Source of the DNA: Acidobacteriota bacterium
Lineage (GTDB): Bacteria; Acidobacteriota; Terriglobia; Terriglobales; Acidobacteriaceae
NCBI GenBank assembly: GCA_021780315.1
Contig: JAJXYY010000024.1
Location: 1-64,000 of the forward strand
DNA: 64,000 nt
Direction of reading: 5' to 3'
The notes beneath the pieces were generated by a model, which was not told where the DNA came from, did no database searches, and saw only the letters and a list, made by a program, of their open reading frames with translations. A program made the translations under genes and the position numbers. How positions within the stretch are numbered: position 1 is the first letter of the stretch; every line of letters begins with the position of its first letter. Positions 7,568-19,436 of the stretch are shown one piece after another.

Positions 7568-9733
7568 TTAGTGCAAACTTGTTGGCAGTTTTTCGATGCG
7601 TACCGCGCATTGCTTGAAGTTGGGTTCGCGGGAGATAGGATCGAAGGCACCGAGGGTTACGAGATTGGAGTTGGTCTCGGAGAAGTGGAAGGGCATGAAG
7701 ACCTGGCCGGGAGCGACGATTCCGGTGATGCGGAGTTCGAGGTTTTTGACGGCGCTACGGCGGGAGACGACGTTGACGCGGTCGTGGGGGCGGAGTTCGA
7801 GGCGGGCGGCGTCGAGAGGGTTCATTTCGAGCCAGGCGTTGGGGACCATGGCGTCAAGCATCTCTACCTTGGCGGTTTTGGTGCGGGTGTGCCAGTGTTC
7901 GACGGTGCGTCCGGTGTTGAGGATGAAGGCGTATTCTTCGTTGGGCTGCTCGGTGAAGGGCAGGCAGGGGACGGTGTGAAGGATGGCTTTGCCATCGGGG
8001 GTGGGAAAGATGCCGTCGTTGTAGAGGCGCTCGCCACCCCATTGGACTCCGCCCTGATCTTCAATTTGCTGCCAGGTGAAGTTGCTGTAGTCGCACATAC
8101 GTCCGGCGGAGACGCGCTGCCACTCCTGGAAGGCGTCGTGGGTGGTCTTCCAGCCGGGGAAGAGTTGTTCGCGGACGCCGAGTTTTTCGGCGATGCTGAG
8201 GAAGATGTCGAAGTCGGGGCGGGCTTCCGCGGGTGGTGGAACGAAGGCGTTGACCTTGCTGATGCGTCGCTCGGAGTTGGTGTAGGTGCCTTCTTTTTCT
8301 CCCCAGATGGCTGCGGGTAGAACGAGGTGCGCGAAGTCGGAGGTGGGGGTGGGGTGGAAGCCGTCCTGCACGACGAGGAAGTCGACGTTGCGTAGGGCCT
8401 GCTCGAGGACGGAGTAGTTGGGGAAGGAGACGACCGGGTTGGTGGCGATGAACCAGAGGGCTTTGACTTTGCCGGCGACTGCGGCTTCGATGATGTCGGG
8501 ATAGGCGAGGCCACGGGCAGTGGGGATGGTATCGACGTCGATGTTCCAGAGGCGGGCGAGGTCTTCGCGGTCCTGATGGTTGTCGAATTTGCGATAGCCG
8601 GGGAGGCTGGAGGTGAAGCCGGTCTCGCGGGTGCCCATGGCGTTGCACTGGCCGGTGATGGAGAACGGCGCTGCTCCGGCGCGGCCGATATTGCCGGTGA
8701 TGAGAGCGAGATTGTTGATGGCGGTGACGGTAGCAGCGCCCTGAGTGGAGTGATTGACGCCCATGGTCCATCCGATGAAGGCTGCTTTGGCGCGGCCGTA
8801 GAGGTGGGCGGTGCGGAGGATCTGGGCCTCGGTGAGGCCGGTGACCTCGGCGACGTGTTCCGGGGTGAAGGTGGCGACGAAGGCTGCATACTCTGCGAAG
8901 CCGGTGGTGTGCTGGTCGATGTAGGTCTGGTCGATGAGGCGGTCGCGAATGAGGATGTGGGCGATGCCGTTGAGCAGGGCGATGTCGCTGCGGGGTTTGA
9001 CGGGGAGATGGAGGTCGGCCATCATGGCGGTCTTGGTGACGCGCGGGTCAGCGACGATGAGGGTACGAGTTTGGTCGCGTTCGAGGCGGTGGCAGAGGAT
9101 GGGGTGGTTGTCGGCGATGTTGGCTCCGATGAGGAGGACGACGTCGGCGTGCTGCATGTCCGCGTAGGAGCCGGGAGGGCCGTCGCTGCCGAAGGAGAGT
9201 TTGTATCCGGCGACGGCGGAGGCCATGCAGAGGGTGGTGTTGCCGTCGTTGTTGCGGGTGCGGAAGCCGAGTTGGACGAGTTTGCCGAGGGTGTAGCACT
9301 CTTCGGTGAGGAGTTGGCCGGTGCCAATGACACCGAGGGCGTCTTTGCCGTACTGGGTCTGTACGGCGCGGAATTTTTCGATCATGGTGTCGAGGGCTTC
9401 GTCCCAGGAGACGGGTACGAGTTTGCCGTCTTTACGGAGTAGAGGCAGGCGCGCGCGTCCGGGAGCGTCGAGGATGTGATGTTCGCTGAGACCTTTGGGG
9501 CAGAGTTTGCCGCGGTTGACGGGGTGGTCGGGATTGCCGCGGGCGGCGACGGCTTTGCCATCCTTGATGCCGATGAGCATTCCGCAGCCGACGGAGCAGT
9601 ATCCGCAGGTGGTCTTGACCCAGGAGTCTGCGACGCGGGCGGAGGCGATGTGTCCGAAGCGGGGATCGCGCTGGAAGGAATAGCTGGATTTGCGTGTGTC
9701 GATGCCGAGGGCGCGGCGGAGTCGGTTCCACAT
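7568..9733 (-). CDS. Molybdopterin oxidoreductase, assimilatory-type nitrate reductase catalytic subunit
   Basis: N-terminal 4Fe-4S CGYCSVGCGM...RGKLCPKG; GANIADNHPI; molydopterin dinucleotide-binding C-terminal domain. Confidence 0.9.
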   Translation of the reverse strand: MWNRLRRALGIDTRKSSYSFQRDPRFGHIASARVADSWVKTTCGYCSVGCGMLIGIKDGKAVAARGNPDHPVNRGKLCPKGLSEHHILDAPGRARLPLLRKDGKLVPVSWDEALDTMIEKFRAVQTQYGKDALGVIGTGQLLTEECYTLGKLVQLGFRTRNNDGNTTLCMASAVAGYKLSFGSDGPPGSYADMQHADVVLLIGANIADNHPILCHRLERDQTRTLIVADPRVTKTAMMADLHLPVKPRSDIALLNGIAHILIRDRLIDQTYIDQHTTGFAEYAAFVATFTPEHVAEVTGLTEAQILRTAHLYGRAKAAFIGWTMGVNHSTQGAATVTAINNLALITGNIGRAGAAPFSITGQCNAMGTRETGFTSSLPGYRKFDNHQDREDLARLWNIDVDTIPTARGLAYPDIIEAAVAGKVKALWFIATNPVVSFPNYSVLEQALRNVDFLVVQDGFHPTPTSDFAHLVLPAAIWGEKEGTYTNSERRISKVNAFVPPPAEARPDFDIFLSIAEKLGVREQLFPGWKTTHDAFQEWQRVSAGRMCDYSNFTWQQIEDQGGVQWGGERLYNDGIFPTPDGKAILHTVPCLPFTEQPNEEYAFILNTGRTVEHWHTRTKTAKVEMLDAMVPNAWLEMNPLDAARLELRPHDRVNVVSRRSAVKNLELRITGIVAPGQVFMPFHFSETNSNLVTLGAFDPISREPNFKQCAVRIEKLPTSLH

Positions 9734-11352
9734 TAGTGTGTTCCTCCGCGAGTGAAGGTGAGAGCCATGTTGAGGGGTACGACGGAGACGAAGAAGAGGT
9801 AGCGAGCGAGCAGGATTCCGAGGGTGGCTGCGACGCAGGCGAGGACGGGATTGCCGACGATGGTGAGGACGGTGGTGGCAGCGACGAGTCCGAAGCAGGC
9901 GATGAGTGCGGCGCGGAGGTCGGGCAGGTTGAGCAAGGTGGCTGATGCACGCTGCTCAAAGAGTGGTGAACGATGGAGACGGACGAGGCGGGTGATTTGG
10001 TTGGTGAGCCAGAGAAGAGTGGCTATGGCTACGGGCCAGGTGGAGTTGTGCTGGGAGGTCGCCGTGGTGAACTGCCACAGGAGTGGGAGATGGGTGATGA
10101 GGGCTTCGATGACGCTGCTGAGGACGGGGTGCAGCGTGGTGCCGAGGAGCAGGGCACTGAGGAGGAAGTCGATAGGAGTGTGGAGCATGTTCCAGGAGGG
10201 TCGAGCGGGAACCAGATAGATGTATGCGCTGGCCAGGATTCCGGCGATGCCGAGCAGGGTGGCGAGGGTACCGAGGGAGTTCTGCAGTACGGAGTTGGTG
10301 GCGAGGGGTTGGAGGCGCTGGAGCGCGGGGATGGGGAGAATGCCAGCCCATGCGATGAGGGTAGCGGTGGTGAGGGTGAGGAAGAAGAGACCGAAGAGGA
10401 GGACCTCGCGGCTGAGCCAAGAGCGCTTCCACATTTTGAGGGCCCGCCAGGCATAGGCAGGGCGGCCAAGATGGAAGACGGATATGTTGAGAGCGACGGC
10501 GGTGATGCCGAGGAGCAGGGTGAGGAACAGCGGAGATGCTGTGTGGCTGAGGAGGGTTACGGCGAGGGCTCCGGTGACGGCCTGCATGAGGGTGGTCATG
10601 AAGACGAGCGAGAGATGCGCGTGCTCGGGACGGATACGTCCGGTATCGACGCGCTCTAGTTGCGCAGAGGACTGGGAGGGCAGGGTGATACGGGTGGTGG
10701 AGATGGTGTGTCCGGCGGCGGGCATGCCGGGGGATTCTGCGGCGGCGTAGTCGACGCGCCATGCGGTCATGTTGACGACTTCGATCTCGATGGCGGCTTC
10801 GGGGCAGGCGTTGACGCAGGCGGGTTCGAGACCATCGGTGAGGCGGCCGTGGCACATATCGCATTTGCCGACGACGCCGCGCTCGGGGTTGAACTGGGGG
10901 ACGGAGTAGGGGCAGTTCCAGACACAGTACTGGCAGCCGATGCAGGCGTCGGCGGAGTGGAGGACGATGCCGGTGACGGGGTCTTTGGTGTAGGCGTCGA
11001 CGGGGCAGCCTTTGACGCACTCGGCATCGAGACAGTGGTTGCAACCCATGGAGAGATAGTGCCGCTGGGTGTCGGGGTAGGAGCCACCTTCGATCTCGCC
11101 GATGCGTCGCCAGCGGATGTCGGTGGGGTTACCGTTCTGCTCGTTGCAGGCGATCTCGCAGGAGCGGCAGCCGATGCACTTGGTCATGTTGAAGTGGAAG
11201 CGGAACTGCTCGTCGGGCAGGAGGGCGCGCTGGGGGATGAGGGAGTCTACTATCTGTGGACCGAAGGAAGGTTTGCCGAGATCATCGAGGGTCATGCGAA
11301 CGAGAGAGCCATCGCTACCGGCGAGTGCGCGATCATGAAGTGGAAGGGACAC
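9733..11352 (-). CDS. Fused DmsB-like 4Fe-4S ferredoxin / DmsC-like membrane anchor subunit
   Basis: CIGCRSCEIACNEQN, CNHCLDAECVKGCP, CIGCQYCVWNCPY, CDMCHGR cluster motifs followed by about 8 TM helices. Confidence 0.85.
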   Translation of the reverse strand: MSLPLHDRALAGSDGSLVRMTLDDLGKPSFGPQIVDSLIPQRALLPDEQFRFHFNMTKCIGCRSCEIACNEQNGNPTDIRWRRIGEIEGGSYPDTQRHYLSMGCNHCLDAECVKGCPVDAYTKDPVTGIVLHSADACIGCQYCVWNCPYSVPQFNPERGVVGKCDMCHGRLTDGLEPACVNACPEAAIEIEVVNMTAWRVDYAAAESPGMPAAGHTISTTRITLPSQSSAQLERVDTGRIRPEHAHLSLVFMTTLMQAVTGALAVTLLSHTASPLFLTLLLGITAVALNISVFHLGRPAYAWRALKMWKRSWLSREVLLFGLFFLTLTTATLIAWAGILPIPALQRLQPLATNSVLQNSLGTLATLLGIAGILASAYIYLVPARPSWNMLHTPIDFLLSALLLGTTLHPVLSSVIEALITHLPLLWQFTTATSQHNSTWPVAIATLLWLTNQITRLVRLHRSPLFEQRASATLLNLPDLRAALIACFGLVAATTVLTIVGNPVLACVAATLGILLARYLFFVSVVPLNMALTFTRGGTH

Positions 11353-11425: not shown

Positions 11426-13222
11426 TTAGTAGACGTCGCGGTGATAGCGGTGCTGCTCCTTGAGGGAGTTGACGTACTCGCTGGCTGCGGCGGGGTCGAG
11501 GTGGCCTTGCTGCTCGACGATGCGGTGGAGGGTGGCATCGACGTCCTTGGCCATGCGGGCAGCGTCTCCGCAGACGTAGATGCTGGCACCTTCCTGAAGC
11601 CATTTCCAGAAGTGGGAGGCTTTTTCGAGCATCTTGTCCTGCACGTAGACCTTGTGCTCCTGGTCGCGGGAGAAGGCCAGGTCGAGGCGGGTGAGGTGTT
11701 GGTCGGTGACCATGGACTCGAGTTCATCGCGGTAGAGGAAGTCGGTGGTGGCGGAGCGCTCGCCGAAGAAGAGCCAGTTGCGGCCAGTTGCGGCGAGGGC
11801 GCGGCGCTCGTGAAGAAAGGAACGGAAGGGAGCGATGCCGGTGCCGGGACCGATCATGATGATGGGGGCGTCGGACTGTTTGGGTAGGCGGAATTTCTTG
11901 TTTGGTTGGATATAAATGGGCAGCGATTGCCCGGTGGGGGTGCGATCAGCGAAGAGGGTGGAGCAGACACCGCCGCGTTCGCGGTTGTGCGAGCGATAAC
12001 GGACGACGGCGACGGTGGTGTGGATTTCGCCTGCGTGCGCGACGGGACTGGAGGAGATGGAGTAGAGGCGCGGGGTGAGTTTGGGCAGCATGGCGACGAG
12101 GTCAGCGGGATCGTGGAGGACGCCAGGGTAATCGAGGAGGAGGTCAATGAGACCACGGTCCGAGGTGTAGGCGTCGAGGTGGGATTGCTGCTCCGGGATG
12201 AGGAGACCAAAGAGAGTGTGGCACTGGCCGATAGTGGCGTAAGCCTCAATCATTTTGCGAGTGAGACGGGTTATCTGGAGATGATTGAGGAGGGCATCGT
12301 GAAGGGTTGTTGCTCCGACCTTCAAGAGTTGCACAGGAGCGGAGCCGCTGAAGTTGAGCTTGTGCAGGATCTCCTCGACGAGGCGTGGATCATTCTGGGG
12401 GATGACGCCACAGGCATCTCCGGCCTCGTAGTGGATGGCGGAGTCCTGAATAGAGAAGGCCATGTGCAGGGTGAGTTTGCTGGAGACGTCGAGGGTGAGA
12501 GGACGCTTGTCGACGAGGGGTGCGAGGAAGGGATTTTCGCGATTGTGCAGGGGGGCGCTGGTGTTTGCACGGGCGGCGATGGGCAGGCTTGTGGCGATGG
12601 GGGTGGACGCGGGACGGGAGGCACGAGGAGCTACGATCTCATTGAGCTTGCCGAAGAGGGTGGACTTCCAGGTGGCGAGCGGGAGATCGAGATCGATGTC
12701 GCAGTCAACGCGGTCGGCGATGCGGGTGGCACCGAGGGCGGTGAGTTTATTGTCGAGGTCGACACCGAACTTGCAGAAGTGCTCGTAGTTGGAGTCTCCC
12801 AGGGCGAGGACCGCGTAGGAGAGGTTCTCGTAGCGGGGAAAGTGCTCGAGGCAGAGTTGCTCGTAAAAGGGCTGAACTGCGTCGGGAGCGTCGCCCTCGC
12901 CGTAGGTGCTGGCGATAAGGATGGCGTAACGCTCTGCGGCCAGGGCTGCGGGGGTATAGCCTTCGAGCGAGAGCAGGGAGGCGACGTGTCCTTTGGCTTT
13001 GAGCTCTTTGGCGAGCTTGCGGGCGATGCCTTCGGCGGTACCGGACTGCGAGGCGTAGAGTACGGCAATCTTGAGCGTGGGTGGTGCTTCCGGCGCAATT
13101 GCAGGTACGGCGGAGGAGTAGACACCGGCGAGGAACCCGTTGAGCCAGGCACGCTGGTCATCGGAGAAGGGTGCGTTGTCGGGGATGAAGGGCACGAGTG
13201 TGGGCTGGGGCGTGGAGGTCAT
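11426..13222 (-). CDS. Sulfite-reductase-type flavoprotein (CysJ-like; flavodoxin + FAD/NADPH domains)
   Basis: Flavodoxin YASQSGTAEGIARKLAKEL; FAD/NADPH domain RLYSISSSP, GPGTGIAPFRSFLHER; start placed at MTSTPQPTLV, overlapping the upstream stop. Confidence 0.85.
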   Translation of the reverse strand: MTSTPQPTLVPFIPDNAPFSDDQRAWLNGFLAGVYSSAVPAIAPEAPPTLKIAVLYASQSGTAEGIARKLAKELKAKGHVASLLSLEGYTPAALAAERYAILIASTYGEGDAPDAVQPFYEQLCLEHFPRYENLSYAVLALGDSNYEHFCKFGVDLDNKLTALGATRIADRVDCDIDLDLPLATWKSTLFGKLNEIVAPRASRPASTPIATSLPIAARANTSAPLHNRENPFLAPLVDKRPLTLDVSSKLTLHMAFSIQDSAIHYEAGDACGVIPQNDPRLVEEILHKLNFSGSAPVQLLKVGATTLHDALLNHLQITRLTRKMIEAYATIGQCHTLFGLLIPEQQSHLDAYTSDRGLIDLLLDYPGVLHDPADLVAMLPKLTPRLYSISSSPVAHAGEIHTTVAVVRYRSHNRERGGVCSTLFADRTPTGQSLPIYIQPNKKFRLPKQSDAPIIMIGPGTGIAPFRSFLHERRALAATGRNWLFFGERSATTDFLYRDELESMVTDQHLTRLDLAFSRDQEHKVYVQDKMLEKASHFWKWLQEGASIYVCGDAARMAKDVDATLHRIVEQQGHLDPAAASEYVNSLKEQHRYHRDVY

Positions 13223-13223
13223 G

Positions 13224-14987
13224 TCAGCGGGCCTCATGAGGAGAGCAGAATGATTTGAGTTGAGCGATGTCGTGGCGGCGGCTGAAGCTGAGGAACGACT
13301 CGTCTGGCAGGCGTTGGGTGGTGTAGGCGTGGAATAGCCGCTCCATGACAGGGGGTAGGTCTGCGAACTTGATGGCGGGGATGAGTTCGCGGGCGATGCT
13401 CTGATCCTGATCGGAGCCGCCGCCGATAACGACCTGGTAGCCTTCTTCGCCACCGATTTTGACGCCCATGAGGCCAAGGTCGCCGATGTAGTGCTGGGCG
13501 CAGGAGTGGCTGCAGCCGGTGACGTGGAGGTTTACGGGCTGGTCGATCGGGAAGCGTGCGTCGAGCAGGTTGGCGAGGGCAACGGCATGCTTTTTGGTAT
13601 CGCTGGCGGCGAAGCGACAACCCTGGTTGCCGGTGCAGGCTACGGTGCCGCGGAGCACGGCGCCGGCGGTGATGTTGAGGCCGGCGTCAATGACGGCTAG
13701 TTGCGCGGCTGCGAGGTGCTCGGTTGGGATGTTGGGGATGATGATGTTTTGCCAGACGGTGAGGCGAAGTTCGCTGGAGCCGAAGCGGTCGGCGATGTCG
13801 GCGAGGGCAAGCATTTGGGCGACAGGGAGTTGCCCGACAGGGATCGAGATGCCGATGTAGTGCAAGCCGGACTGGGATTGCGGATGAACGCCGAGGTGAG
13901 CGGCTCGGTCGATGTGGTTGCGCGGTTCGCAGTCTGCGAGGGGGAAACGGATGAGGGGAAAGTCGAGTCGGCTTTCGGTTTCGGCGAGAAAGCGTTCTAC
14001 ACCCCAGCGATCGACGAGGTACTTGAGGCGGGCTTTTTTCCGGTCGGTGCGGTCGCCGTTCTCGGAGAAGACACGGATCATGGCGGCGGTGACGGCTACG
14101 GTCTGGTCGGGGCGGAGGAGCAGGCCGCAGTCGGACGCGAACTGCTTGTGGCCGGTGATGCCGCAGAGGAGGACGCGGAAGTAGATGCCGGCGGGGATGC
14201 CGTGACCTTCGTTGACGCGTACGGCGATGAAGCCGATGTCGTTGGTGTCGGCGACGACGCTGATGGCTCCGCCGTTGTCGAAGGCGACGTTGAACTTACG
14301 GGGGAGGCCAAAGAGATCGCGAGAGTTGAGGATGTAGAGGTTGAGGGCTTCGGCGAGGTGGGCGACGTCGTAAAGTTCGGTAGGGTCGATGCCAGTGATG
14401 GGGGAGGCGGTGATGTTGCGGATATTGTCTGCGCCGGCACCACGGGAGGACATGCCAAGGGCCTGAATTCGAGCGAGGACACGGATGATGTCCTTGGGCT
14501 GGAACTGACGGATCTGGAGGTTGCCGCGGGTTGTGATGTCGCAGCGTCCCGAGCCCCAGTCCTGGGCCATCTGGGCGAGGCCTCGCATCTGGTAGGACGT
14601 GAGTTGGCTGCCGGGGACGCGCATCCTTAGCATGAATGAGTCCTGCGTTGGGGCGACGTAGAAGAGACCATGGAACTTGAAGCGGAAGAGATCGTCGGGG
14701 GTGGGGGGCTTGTTTTCGCTGGCGTGGGCGAGGAGTTTGTCCCAGATATCGAGGGGGTTTTCTTCAAACTTCCAACGTTCTTCTTTACAGAGGTCGGAGA
14801 CGGGGGTGCCGAGGTATGTTTCGTCAGAAGCTTCGTCGGTGTTGCTGGGGAGCGTAGCGGGGGATTGATTTTCAGGAGCGGCAACTGTCGGGAGAGCGAC
14901 CCGGTGAGCAACCCCTGCGAAGAAGCCCTGGAGGTACTGCTTCTGCTGTGAGTCGAAGTCGGCGTAGGTGGTGGATTGCGAATTCAT
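13224..14987 (-). CDS. nirA: Siroheme/4Fe-4S nitrite or sulfite reductase (NirA/CysI family)
   Basis: TGNQGCRFA and TGCSHSCAQHYIGDLGLMG siroheme/FeS cysteine motifs; two NIR_SIR half domains. Confidence 0.85.
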   Translation of the reverse strand: MNSQSTTYADFDSQQKQYLQGFFAGVAHRVALPTVAAPENQSPATLPSNTDEASDETYLGTPVSDLCKEERWKFEENPLDIWDKLLAHASENKPPTPDDLFRFKFHGLFYVAPTQDSFMLRMRVPGSQLTSYQMRGLAQMAQDWGSGRCDITTRGNLQIRQFQPKDIIRVLARIQALGMSSRGAGADNIRNITASPITGIDPTELYDVAHLAEALNLYILNSRDLFGLPRKFNVAFDNGGAISVVADTNDIGFIAVRVNEGHGIPAGIYFRVLLCGITGHKQFASDCGLLLRPDQTVAVTAAMIRVFSENGDRTDRKKARLKYLVDRWGVERFLAETESRLDFPLIRFPLADCEPRNHIDRAAHLGVHPQSQSGLHYIGISIPVGQLPVAQMLALADIADRFGSSELRLTVWQNIIIPNIPTEHLAAAQLAVIDAGLNITAGAVLRGTVACTGNQGCRFAASDTKKHAVALANLLDARFPIDQPVNLHVTGCSHSCAQHYIGDLGLMGVKIGGEEGYQVVIGGGSDQDQSIARELIPAIKFADLPPVMERLFHAYTTQRLPDESFLSFSRRHDIAQLKSFCSPHEAR

Positions 14988-15718
14988 GCGGAAGATCCTC
15001 TTGGGAAAGCTTCAGAAGACTGAAGGTTGCCGTAAAGTTCGTGAACGCGTGGTGCGATGCTGGAGCAGCAAAGCCGACCATGCAGGGCCAGATCGGACAT
15101 CGATATCCTTGATGGAGTTCAAGGCGATGGATTCAGGGCTCTTCGCGGAGCATGAACTGTGATGTGTGAGGAAGTTGCCCGCTCCACGGCATGGTGAGGG
15201 GCGTGTCAGAGAGGCGTTATACGTGCCTACTATGGAGCAACTATAACCTTGTCAGGATGCATGGCAAATCGGAATAGAAAAAAGCTATACGGCGTATTGG
15301 GGGAAATGAATATGCAGTGCGTCAAGCGGGTTTCGGGTCATAAAAAGGTTGCGTGGCACCTGTGCGCATGTTACAAACGCGTTACTGCTACGACCAAGCC
15401 ACGACACCTTGACGTGTCATAATCTGCACGTTGGCAGAGCGTCCGCCTGAAGATCTTGTGGATGTTTCCGCTGATGTTGAGCCTGGCCCTGATAGCCTGG
15501 CATACACCTCCCAATAGTTACTGAAGCAGCATCCTGCTGGCAAGATGACGGTTACACCATGGTGTCTCTGTCGCTTGTTTGCGGATTTGTTGGTATCGAG
15601 TCCCTCGCTGGTTGCAGGAGATTTTCATCCATTCGGTGGATTCGACTCTTCATGGATTCCTGTAGGTTCGGTGTCGAACACCAACACAATTGAAAGTTAC
15701 TTTTTCCCCTGGAGAATT

Positions 15719-17206
15719 ATGAGAGTTTTTGTCGCCTCGCTATTTTTGACTACAGTTGCTTCGCTGGGACAAACGTCAGTTCCGTCTGCTCCCAAGCCTG
15801 CTGTAACGGGCAAATTGCCGTTTAGCGTGAGTGTGTACGACCGGACGCGTGTGGATACATGGCAGTGGTTTGCGGCGCCTCCGGAGACGGAGACGTACGG
15901 TTATGTCGAGTCGCTGGTGCGGCTGGGGATAGCGCAGCGGATCAAGCATGTGGACTGGCAGTTGGAGTTGTCGCAACCAGCGATGCTGGCGCTGCCGAGT
16001 GCGTCGATCTCACCGGTTGCCGCACAGGGACAGTTGGGGCTGGGAGGCACGTACTATGCCTCGAACGGGAACAACTCGTATCCTGCCGCGGCTTCGCTGA
16101 AGCAGGGATTTGTGCGGTACCACTTTCCGGGCGAGGACAAGTCGGTACGGTTGGGACGGTTTGAGTTCTTTGATGGTCAGGAGTTACAGCCGAAGAATGT
16201 TGCGATGAGTTGGTTGCAGACAAACCGGATTGCACAACGGTTGATCGGCAACTTTGGATTTTCCAATGCGCAGCGGAGTTTTGATGGAATCGACGCACAC
16301 TACGGTGGTAGCGACTGGGATGTCACTGGGATGGCGGCAAGGGCTGATCAGGGTGTGTTCAACATGAATGCAAATCCAGAGCTGAACGTGGATTTGCAGT
16401 ATCTGGCGTTGAGCCGGTTTGAATTAAAGCGGCATTTGCTGTGGCGTGTTTTTGGAATTGGATACCATGACGGTCGGACGGGAGTTTTAAAGACGGACAA
16501 TCGTCCATTGGCAGTGCGCACCGCAGACCATCACAATATTCGTGTGGGCAGCTACGGCGGGGATGTGTTGACTGTGGCACCTGCAGGTCGCGGGCAGTTT
16601 GATTTTCTGGCCTGGGGCGTATTGCAGAATGGCAACTGGGGCGTTCAGCATCATAGCGCGGGAGCGGTGGCGGTTGAAGGTGGGTACCAGTTTACTAAGG
16701 TCGCTTCGCAGCCGTGGGTACGTGGCGGATTCTATCGTGGGACGGGCGATAACAACCCGAATGACGATCAACACAATACGTTCTTCCAGGTGGCTCCGAC
16801 TCCTCGTGTGTATGCGCGGTTTCCATTCTTCAATTTGATGAACAACAAAGACCAGTTCGTCCAAGTGATTGATAAACCGACCAAGAAGCTTGAGTTGCGT
16901 GGCGATCTGCACTGGTTGCAACTGACCTCTGCCAACGATCTTTGGTACCAAGGCGGTGGTGCATTCGACAACAAGGTATTTGGCTTTGTGGGTCGGCCGG
17001 CGAATAGCCACTCGAGCTTTATTTCGTTGGCGGACATTAGCGCGGACTGGCAGGCTACTCATACTCTGGCGTTGAACTTTTACTATGGCCATGCGTGGGG
17101 AAAGTCGGTAGTACGCTCAATTTATCCGACCGGTAGTACAACCCAGTTTGGGTATGTTGAGATGGTTTACCGGTGGGGTGCTGCACAAAGGGCAGCGAGC
17201 AAGTAG
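15719..17206 (+). CDS. Alginate-export-domain outer membrane porin-like protein
   Basis: Signal peptide MRVFVASLFLTTVASLGQ; beta-barrel sequence resembling the alginate_exp family; YGHAWGKSVV...YVEMVYRW C-terminus. Confidence 0.75.
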   Translation: MRVFVASLFLTTVASLGQTSVPSAPKPAVTGKLPFSVSVYDRTRVDTWQWFAAPPETETYGYVESLVRLGIAQRIKHVDWQLELSQPAMLALPSASISPVAAQGQLGLGGTYYASNGNNSYPAAASLKQGFVRYHFPGEDKSVRLGRFEFFDGQELQPKNVAMSWLQTNRIAQRLIGNFGFSNAQRSFDGIDAHYGGSDWDVTGMAARADQGVFNMNANPELNVDLQYLALSRFELKRHLLWRVFGIGYHDGRTGVLKTDNRPLAVRTADHHNIRVGSYGGDVLTVAPAGRGQFDFLAWGVLQNGNWGVQHHSAGAVAVEGGYQFTKVASQPWVRGGFYRGTGDNNPNDDQHNTFFQVAPTPRVYARFPFFNLMNNKDQFVQVIDKPTKKLELRGDLHWLQLTSANDLWYQGGGAFDNKVFGFVGRPANSHSSFISLADISADWQATHTLALNFYYGHAWGKSVVRSIYPTGSTTQFGYVEMVYRWGAAQRAASK

Positions 17207-17296: not shown

Positions 17297-17509
17297 TCGT
17301 GCGTCCAGCGGCAATGAAGTGTGGGTTGGGCGAGACGATTTTGTCTGGAGCGCACTTAGCCGCTAGTATCGTGAACAACAGATGAATCGACAGATGCCTG
17401 GGATTGATTGGAAGTGCAACAGGGACGACTGCAGAGCAGGTTTGGCTGCTGTCCGAATAGATTGCGCGCTGAGATTTGACGTTTTATAGATTGTCTTTTG
17501 GGAGAATGT

Positions 17510-19192
17510 ATGGCTCACGCGAGCTTCGACGGACTACGAGTTTTGTCACTGGAGTCACGTCGAGCAAAAGAAGTTGCGAAGTTAATTCGCACATATGGCG
17601 GAGAGGCCTTTGTTGTGCCTTCAATGCGTGAGGTTGGGCTGGAGTCGAATCATCAGGCGTTAGAGTTTTCGGATCGTTTAGTGGCTGGTGATTTTGATCT
17701 GGTACTTTTTTTTACGGGTGTTGGGGTGCGTGCGTTGGTGGACATAGCCGCGACGCGACATCCGCGGGAAGAGTTTCTGGATGCGTTGCGCAAAGTTAAG
17801 GTCGGTGCACGCGGACCGAAGCCTGTGGCGGCGTTGCGGGAGTTGAAGATTCCAGTGACGGCGACGGCATCGGAACCTGCGACCTGGCGCGAGATGATGG
17901 CGGCGTTGGAGATGGAGTTTGGAAGTTCTCTGAGCGAGTTTCGGGTGGCCGTGCAGGAGTATGGGGCTTCGAATCCCGAGTTTTTAGCGGAGTTGACGGA
18001 CCGTTGTGCCGAAGTGACGAAGGTTCCGGTGTACCAGTGGGCGTTGCCTGAAGACCTTCGTCCGCTGCGGGAGTGTGTTCTGGGAATTGCGAACGGTAGC
18101 ATCGATGTGGTGCTGTTTATGACGGCGGTGCAGGTGATCCATCTATTTCAGGTTGCGGAAGAGATGGGGTTTCGGGAGGAGTTGCGAGCGGGGTTGTTGT
18201 CCACTGTGGTGGTGTCCATTGGTCCGACGACCACGGAGGAGTTGGCGCAGTATCAGATTGTCCCTGATTTTGAGCCTTCGAGGCCGAAGATGGGTTTTAT
18301 CGTGAATGAAGCGGCCCAGTACTCGGCCAAGATATTGAAGGAGAAGCGAAGTGGGATTGCGAGTATTGCAATCAAGCCTGCGGCTACGACGACGTTGAAT
18401 GTGACTGCGGCCAAGAGTGCCAGAGGCGTTCCGCGGGTGGCTGCTTCTTCGCCGACGATGGCTGGTTTCCGGGATGGGCTGACGTCGATCGATTTTCTGC
18501 ATGAGGTGAGCAGCCGGATTGCTGCGGCTGACTCGTTTCACGTAGTGCTGGCCAGCATTGTCGATTTTGTGACGACTGTGATCCCTTGTGATTCATGTTT
18601 TATCTATGTGCAGGAGCATGACAAGCTCGTGCTGCGCGCGTCGAAGAATCCGCATGCGGATCTAGTGGATCAGTTGGGCGTGCAGGTTGGGCAGGGAATC
18701 ACTGGCTGGGTTGCCGAGCATCGTGAGCCTGTGGCGATTGCTTCTGGTGCGTCGAATGATTCTCGGTTTGTGATCTTTCGAAATTTACCAGAGGACCATT
18801 TTGAGGCGATTCTGTGTACGCCGATTCTGTGTGCGAACCGCGTGGTTGGGGTGATCAATCTACAGCATCGGTTGACCTATGCGCATACGTCGGAGCAGGT
18901 ACGCTTGCTGTCGATGTTGGGATTTCTGGTGGGTGCGGAGATTGAACGCACGCGACTGGAGACGGAAAACGTGCAGTTGGCAGGCCGCTTGGAGGCACGC
19001 AAGGTGCTGGATCGGGCGAAGGGAATTCTGCAGCGCGATCTGGGGATCAGCGAGGAGGAGGCGTATCGCACGATGCAGCGGGAGAGCCGGCAGCGGCGCA
19101 AGTCGATGCGTGAGATTGCAGATGCGATTGTGCTGGGGGATGACCTAAAGAAGGGGCAGCAGGATGATGAGCACAAGCGTGCTCGCGTGTAA
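17510..19192 (+). CDS. HemD-like (uroporphyrinogen-III synthase) - GAF - ANTAR fusion regulator
   Basis: N-terminal HemD fold (LSLESRRAKEVAKLIRTYGGEAFVVPSMRE...LVLFFTGVGVRALVD); GAF (ITGWVAEHREPVAIASG...AILCTPILCANRVVGVINLQH); ANTAR (RLEARKVLDRAKGILQRDLGISEEEAYRTMQRESRQRRKSMREIADAIV). Confidence 0.9.
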   Translation: MAHASFDGLRVLSLESRRAKEVAKLIRTYGGEAFVVPSMREVGLESNHQALEFSDRLVAGDFDLVLFFTGVGVRALVDIAATRHPREEFLDALRKVKVGARGPKPVAALRELKIPVTATASEPATWREMMAALEMEFGSSLSEFRVAVQEYGASNPEFLAELTDRCAEVTKVPVYQWALPEDLRPLRECVLGIANGSIDVVLFMTAVQVIHLFQVAEEMGFREELRAGLLSTVVVSIGPTTTEELAQYQIVPDFEPSRPKMGFIVNEAAQYSAKILKEKRSGIASIAIKPAATTTLNVTAAKSARGVPRVAASSPTMAGFRDGLTSIDFLHEVSSRIAAADSFHVVLASIVDFVTTVIPCDSCFIYVQEHDKLVLRASKNPHADLVDQLGVQVGQGITGWVAEHREPVAIASGASNDSRFVIFRNLPEDHFEAILCTPILCANRVVGVINLQHRLTYAHTSEQVRLLSMLGFLVGAEIERTRLETENVQLAGRLEARKVLDRAKGILQRDLGISEEEAYRTMQRESRQRRKSMREIADAIVLGDDLKKGQQDDEHKRARV

Positions 19193-19392
19193 TGCAACGA
19201 TATCGTCCGCCCGTCGCACTTAGTTCAATGTTGACAAAGTATCTGTAGTCGTTCAGGCTAGTAAGCAATGGTTATCACTTCCACCACGATGGCATGTTGC
19301 ATGTACGGCACGATGTGTTGCTGTATGGCATGTGCACGTGGGTGTGAGTGTTGTTGATAGCTATCTAAATCTATCTCGATAACTCGAAACAC

Positions 19393-19436
19393 AAGCCCCC
19401 ACACTCTGCAGTTCAGGAATGTGGGCTTTTTGTTTT
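19393..19436 (+). terminator. Intrinsic terminator-like hairpin in the cysD 5' leader
   Basis: AAGCCCCCACA...TGTGGGCTTTTTGTTTT (two-C bulge), 41 nt upstream of cysD ATG and 200 nt after the preceding stop. Confidence 0.75.

Follow-up and report, generated by a model that had tools for sequence, protein, structure and literature searches.

A HEM4-GAF-ANTAR fusion protein of the Acidobacteriaceae as a probable RNA-output regulator of nitrate/nitrite assimilation

The gene at positions 17510..19192 (+) of the window, i.e. the whole 64,000-nucleotide stretch of DNA analysed here, encodes a 560-residue protein, denoted HGA, in which a HEM4 (HemD-like) domain, a GAF domain and an ANTAR RNA-binding domain are joined. 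The gene neighbourhood, the co-occurrence with nirA, the dual hairpins conserved in nirA leaders and the residues expected to contact loop position G4 together argue that HGA is probably a one-component regulator that controls nitrate/nitrite assimilation through an RNA output; it would bind the hairpins P1 and P2 of the nirA leader and employ its HEM4 and GAF domains as sensors. An initial annotation had proposed a siroheme-linked RNA regulator of the nitrate as well as the sulfate operon flanking the gene. The nitrate half of that interpretation is strongly supported by the present analysis and the link to siroheme is borne out in part, while the sulfate half is not supported.

The HGA reading frame is unbroken from the ATG at 17510 to the stop codon at 19190-19192. 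A ribosome-binding-site-like GGGAGAAT is located immediately 5' of this ATG, and a TTG at 17498 represents an alternative start. The proposed union of HemD-like, GAF and ANTAR domains in a single ORF was verified by Pfam searches, in which all three matches scored well over the gathering scores: HEM4 at 17570..18295 (+) (residues 21-262, 112 bits, 3e-32), GAF at 18539..18949 (+) (matched over residues 344-478 of a domain assigned to 344-480, 52 bits, 1.4e-13) and ANTAR at 18974..19132 (+) (residues 489-541, 62.5 bits against a cut-off of 27.3, 3.2e-17). In an AlphaFold2 model with 32 homologues as input (mean pLDDT 84.9), a disordered linker (~285-339) separates the HemD fold from the GAF fold, after which come a long helix and the helices of the ANTAR domain. 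By Foldseek, Thermus uroporphyrinogen-III synthase matches the HEM4 part (E about 1e-15) and PtsP-type GAF structures match the GAF part. The HGA GAF domain contains two invariant cysteines, C360 and C363 (CDSC; 18587-18598), also present in a stand-alone GAF-ANTAR paralogue, and this cysteine pair is a possible metal or redox site.

A census of the architecture retrieved the fusion from 76 of 299 genomes of the order (about a quarter, one copy being fragmentary), all belonging to one family, and its frequency in the order is far above chance. A scan of named genomes revealed 80 HGA loci, of which nearly all carry the label Acidobacteriaceae or Acidobacteria, with the genera Granulicella, Edaphobacter, Terriglobus, Acidipila, Acidicapsa, Paracidobacterium and Silvibacterium represented; two records labelled Rhodanobacteraceae are metagenome assemblies and may be mis-binned. 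More distant forms (L228 and L232, 48% identity) retain all three domains. At the threshold used, those genomes of a 297-genome sample of the phylum that fall outside the family yielded no fusion, but HEM4 or GAF-ANTAR parts only. Among the matches listed from open-access full texts, which omit most subscription papers, there was no description of a characterised HemD-ANTAR regulator, nor was this architecture described in those listed for ANTAR combined with Acidobacteria.

On the minus strand HGA is flanked by genes encoding an MFS transporter, a molybdopterin oxidoreductase that is a probable assimilatory nitrate reductase (7568..9733), a DmsB/DmsC-like electron-transfer subunit (9733..11352), a CysJ-like flavoprotein reductase (11426..13477) and NirA, a ferredoxin-type nitrite reductase and siroheme enzyme (13224..14987), whose operon is the predicted target. 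The CysJ-like ORF as called overlaps nirA, its true start probably being located downstream, and the gene belongs to the nirA operon, which corrects the earlier assignment. An Alginate_exp-type outer-membrane porin gene (15545..17206 (+)), often found between nirA and HGA, occupies this place also here, and cysD, cysN, cysH and TauE are encoded downstream of HGA. The location of HGA between nitrate/nitrite and sulfate operons, as first described, is thus correct with respect to nirA and cysDNH, albeit cysI is absent from the cluster. The neighbourhood proved to be conserved for nitrate genes in most loci: HGA typically adjoins nirA (with the CysJ-like, DmsBC-like and molybdopterin genes after it), nirB or nitrate-reductase genes, and does so also in Terriglobus roseus, Granulicella rosea and Acidipila rosea. 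The most distant homologues, at 48% identity, display the order nitrate reductase-nirB-porin-HGA. Gene order around HGA is variable, being divergent or co-directional and with the porin gene in between or elsewhere, and the nitrate link has therefore been kept through rearrangement. Likewise, all 64 genomes carrying nirA also carry HGA, 62 in full length and 2 as contig-end fragments. The co-occurrence of full HGA with nirA corresponds to a Fisher p of 1e-47, an optimistic value considering that the genomes are related.

The predicted RNA target is a dual hexaloop hairpin in the nirA leader (15137..15199 (-)), composed of P1, CAC[CAUGCC]GUG (15185..15196 (-)), and P2, GCUC[CGCGAA]GAGC (15138..15151 (-)). 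Across nirA leaders P1 comprises ~5 pairs and usually a six-base loop with C first and G at position 4 (some loops are 7-8 nt), and it is harder to place in more distant genera; P2 has the general form GCUC[CNNGNN]GAGC. Both loops are closed by C:G and are hexanucleotide in most leaders, and the G at position 4 is invariant in both. Loop position 1 is C in nearly all of these hairpins, compared with A in the known ANTAR-target consensus, and the linker between P1 and P2 mostly spans ~24-41 nt (33 nt in the window) against a published range of 2-25 nt. A further hairpin, GACAC[CUUGAC]GUGUC (15403..15418 (+)), is located on the opposite strand upstream of the porin gene and HGA; this GACAC[CNNGAN]GUGUC element opposite nirA points to porin/HGA, and its partner, a second hairpin that relatives show clearly, is degenerate in the window.

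Conserved dyads of this kind could instead be DNA operators of an unrelated transcription factor, the proximity to HGA then reflecting shared history only. Such an assignment would fit a P2 that never varies and has palindromic ends, as well as a window leader from which a canonical terminator is absent, but it requires a separate factor, because no DNA-binding domain was found in HGA. We consider it distinctly improbable, as the motif is strand-specific: the P2 pattern GCTCCNNGNNGAGC was observed on the sense strand in 44 of 51 nirA leaders and never on the antisense strand, at a density ~140x that of the rest of the same loci, and C1 and G4 are fixed in the mRNA sense only. Moreover, the sequence of P1 changes (GGCAC/GUGCC, GACAC/GUGUC, GAGAC/GUCUC and GGUAC/GUACC) while its pairing stays, the latter being kept through two-sided changes in 3 of 5 pairs. 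The covariation score observed was not equalled by any shuffle, a count which is not to be read as a probability because the sequences are related; P2 provides no covariation, since it never varies. Finally, the motif occurs in the leaders of HGA-linked genes and combines the features of an ANTAR target (closing C:G, hexaloop and G4).

Other searches of the leader were less informative. An Rfam search of the region resulted in no family match, only in chance snoRNA-like matches; the bare P2 pattern was uninformative genome-wide (23 matches vs 38 in the control); folding of whole leaders gave no z-score signal; and RNAalifold applied to P2-P3 recovered P2 only. P3, CAUCG...CGAUG (15098..15129 (-)), follows P2, and in several relatives its outer extension could, with similar energy, compete for the 3' arm of P2, the U-tract there being weak or absent. 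Covariation is not claimed for P3, as its loop lengths vary and are misaligned by MAFFT. In the nirA leader of the window no convincing intrinsic terminator with a U-tract was found after P2, and consequently antitermination is, by analogy with known ANTAR systems, a plausible exact mode of action for HGA and is put no higher than that. Some actinobacterial ANTAR targets overlap the ribosome-binding site or start codon (PMC8164766); P2 is separated from the start by ~150 bases, which argues against direct blocking of the ribosome-binding site.

The distribution of the leader was further studied with R1, a covariance model of the nirA-leader dual hairpin. R1 was built from genomes containing HGA, and only held-out matches are independent. 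Unlike the bare P2 pattern, it is informative genome-wide: within the window's genome it returned a single strong match, the nirA leader at 15137-15199 (-) (60.5 bits, E 1e-12), the next best having an E of 0.57. Searching 299 genomes gave 11 matches with E<=0.001 at sites outside model building, and 10 of these precede nirA (G131, G250, G137 and G006), nirB (G136, G274 and G019), the porin gene (G131 and G180) and, off the HGA locus, a formate/nitrite transporter gene (G061). The eleventh (G229, 26 bits) is of no evident relevance. An R1-type dual hairpin directly before a formate/nitrite transporter gene is located at L140:3375-4381 (+), off the HGA locus of that genome. As the architecture of NirB differs from that of NirA, the leader follows function rather than gene. 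Similarly, in loci with a split operon (L050, L109, L111-L113), the nitrate-reductase genes are preceded by a dual hairpin of their own with nearly the same P2. In G019, from a sister family, a solo HEM4 gene, a GAF-ANTAR gene and nirB, the last preceded by an R1-type leader, adjoin one another unfused (L254 4621-10441), and the parts are thus associated outside the fusion too.

The protein side of the proposed interaction can be compared with the EutV-RNA structure, in which Tyr164 provides the stacking surface for G4, and Arg142, Lys149 and Glu160 hold this base (PMC8934654). The equivalents of R142, K149, E160 and Y164 in HGA are R497, K504, E515 and Y519, identical in 32 of 32 HGA proteins. 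Conversely, Met172, an essential plug in EutV, is replaced by Arg527 in all 32, and Met occupies this position in the aligned EutV, NasR, AmiR and Rv1626 chains. Since Arg527 in the protein is accompanied by C at loop position 1, the exchange of the Met plug for Arg together with that of A1 for C1 suggests that RNA recognition may have shifted in HGA.

A stand-alone GAF-ANTAR protein encoded on contig C12 of the window's genome has to be considered in this context. It shares 59% identity with HGA over the C-terminal half of the latter, with which it has the GAF domain, the helix and the ANTAR domain in common, and it likewise has Arg at the Met172 position, so that the leader hairpins could be its targets, with HGA acting elsewhere or competing. 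We regard this as rather improbable: stand-alone GAF-ANTAR proteins, which lack HEM4 and are not tied to nirA, are common in nirA-less genomes, whereas HGA tracks nirA, and it is HGA that is the physical neighbour of the nirA leader. In the window's genome the stand-alone gene and the hemC gene for porphobilinogen deaminase are convergent (L002:473-2184); in seven further genomes no hemC was seen to adjoin the GAF-ANTAR gene.

Several observations speak against recognition of this RNA by HGA, namely the C at loop position 1, the long linker, the Arg at the Met172 position, the invariance of P2 and the lack of a good terminator, in addition to the potential of the stand-alone GAF-ANTAR protein to bind the same RNA. 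HGA is, moreover, kept in several genomes without nirA or nirB, part of which is accounted for by a separate paralogue clade. Ten second copies of HGA (L042, L044, L053, L067 and L094-L099) form one supported monophyletic clade adjoining SPFH/SPOR, Mur ligase and PHP-like genes, with no nirA nearby and no R1 site in the surrounding sequence examined. At L048 and L100, in two genomes with neither nirA nor nirB, HGA lies beside genes that, judged from reading their sequence alone, resemble larC/larE (nickel pincer cofactor).

Turning to the sensory part, the HEM4 domain of HGA is of the NnaR-type subfamily, as determined by Pfam and by sequence comparison of its TGVG...RGPK signature. It is an NnaR-like paralogue and not the main uroporphyrinogen-III synthase of the cell; the NCBIfam model for the latter scores HGA at 131.8 bits, well under the equivalog cut-off of 233. 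The TG-G and RG-K signatures are common to HGA HEM4, Mycobacterium NnaR-type, Azospirillum and Bacillus proteins, and are present also in a stand-alone Deinococcus HEM4, 40% identical to that of HGA, which has no output domain and is encoded directly after nirB and nirD. Stand-alone relatives (49-58% identity) occur in acidobacteria lacking the fusion, and siroheme enzymes are encoded near HGA-type HEM4 in several lineages. The siroheme or tetrapyrrole link of the initial annotation is supported to the extent that an NnaR-type second HEM4 recurs near siroheme enzymes; the domain is most likely a sensor derived from the synthase, and its ligand would be a tetrapyrrole of the siroheme branch.

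It is also conceivable, though unlikely, that the HEM4 domain is an active uroporphyrinogen-III synthase making extra siroheme precursor, with GAF-ANTAR as the regulatory part. The fold predicted for HGA HEM4 is that of HemD, and in another acidobacterial family the subfamily is fused to uroporphyrinogen decarboxylase (HemD-HemE; L249:6060-8084 (+), L250:5042-7054 (-), L251 and L252, with Pfam applied to L249 and L250), because of which catalysis by some HEM4 members is possible. Long frames around HEM4 in that family were considered as further regulators and rejected, as they are these HEM4-URO-D fusions. HEM4 also adjoins siroheme and sulfite-reductase genes in a further family: at L259:2660-7621 the neighbours of a solo HEM4 gene are siroheme synthase-like and CysH-like genes and a sulfite/nitrite-reductase-like gene, the C-terminus of whose product is ThiS-like. 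Against an active synthase in HGA, a canonical HemD is present besides the HGA-type HEM4 in 20/20 genomes checked, all picked for having the second-type HEM4; the signature loops differ, TGVG/RGPK in HGA versus TSAN/IGPA in the HemD of the window's genome; and Streptomyces NnaR, with the same HEM4 type, is without HemD activity according to the mycobacterial NnaR paper (PMC6277429).

Control of the sulfate operon by HGA, in addition to that of the nitrate operon, was part of the original proposal. The window HGA does sit between nirA and cysDNH, the separate HGA paralogue is found ~4-8 kb from cysD in three genomes, and a solo HEM4 gene adjoins the sulfite-reductase-like gene at L259. Still, dual control is very improbable. 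Direct adjacency of HGA and cysD is limited to the window and a 95%-identical relative (L154), R1 gave no match before cysD, and the cysD leader contains a Cys-rich 29-residue leader peptide, MVITSTTMACCMYGTMCCCMACARGCECC (19268-19357 (+)), followed by a terminator hairpin with a T-run (19393-19436 (+)). Different Cys-rich peptides are encoded at the corresponding place before cysD in L094, L095 and L098. A Cys-rich leader peptide preceding a terminator is the usual appearance of an amino-acid attenuator; judged from its sequence, the cysD leader is probably a cysteine attenuator, and the terminator is therefore explained without HGA. The cysD terminator was accordingly rejected as an HGA target, given the Cys-rich peptide read there.

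In the proposed mechanism, HGA would dimerise through the helix after its GAF domain, and the dimeric ANTAR domains would bind P1 and then P2 on the newly made 5' leader of the mRNA for nirA, the CysJ-like gene, dmsBC and nitrate reductase; in relatives hairpins of this type stand before nirB, the porin gene, nitrite-transporter genes or nitrate-reductase genes with a transcript of their own. By analogy with NasR and EutV, binding would let transcription or expression proceed, i.e. HGA would be an activator rather than a repressor, possibly through antitermination. HEM4 would report a siroheme-branch tetrapyrrole and GAF would sense a second signal. This resembles NasR of Klebsiella and NasT/NasS of Paracoccus and Bradyrhizobium, where an ANTAR output is likewise combined with a nitrate/nitrite assimilation operon, and the NasR target, like the nirA leader, contains dual hexaloop hairpins with a C:G closing pair and G4. 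However, the sensor is HEM4 plus GAF in HGA and NIT or NasS in those systems, and HGA differs from the NasR type in that the loops of its predicted target have C1 instead of A1 and are set further apart by the linker, the Met plug is replaced by Arg, and a clear terminator is lacking in the window. NnaR of Streptomyces and Mycobacterium, in turn, shares with HGA the TG-G/RG-K HEM4 subfamily (32% identity), the nitrate/nitrite context and a separate canonical HemD, but its output is a DNA-binding domain rather than the RNA-binding GAF-ANTAR, and it occurs in a different phylum.

HGA thereby unites two known ideas in one protein, NnaR-type HemD-like sensing and ANTAR control of RNA, and makes the question of what the HemD-like domains of regulators sense directly testable. 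More tentatively, and with the odds somewhat against it, HGA may represent a new class of one-component riboregulator, in which an inactive HemD fold senses a tetrapyrrole of the siroheme pathway and gates an ANTAR domain of re-tuned RNA specificity (Arg plug, C1 loops). If so, nitrite reductase would be made only in the presence of both its siroheme cofactor and nitrate or nitrite, and HEM4 would be a general sensor module serving DNA (NnaR) or RNA (HGA) outputs, or acting alone. The paired changes from Met to Arg in the protein and from A1 to C1 in the loop offer a handle on ANTAR specificity. Acidobacteria are very abundant soil bacteria, and HGA suggests how they may control their use of nitrate, with exact RNA targets and residues to mutate being predicted.
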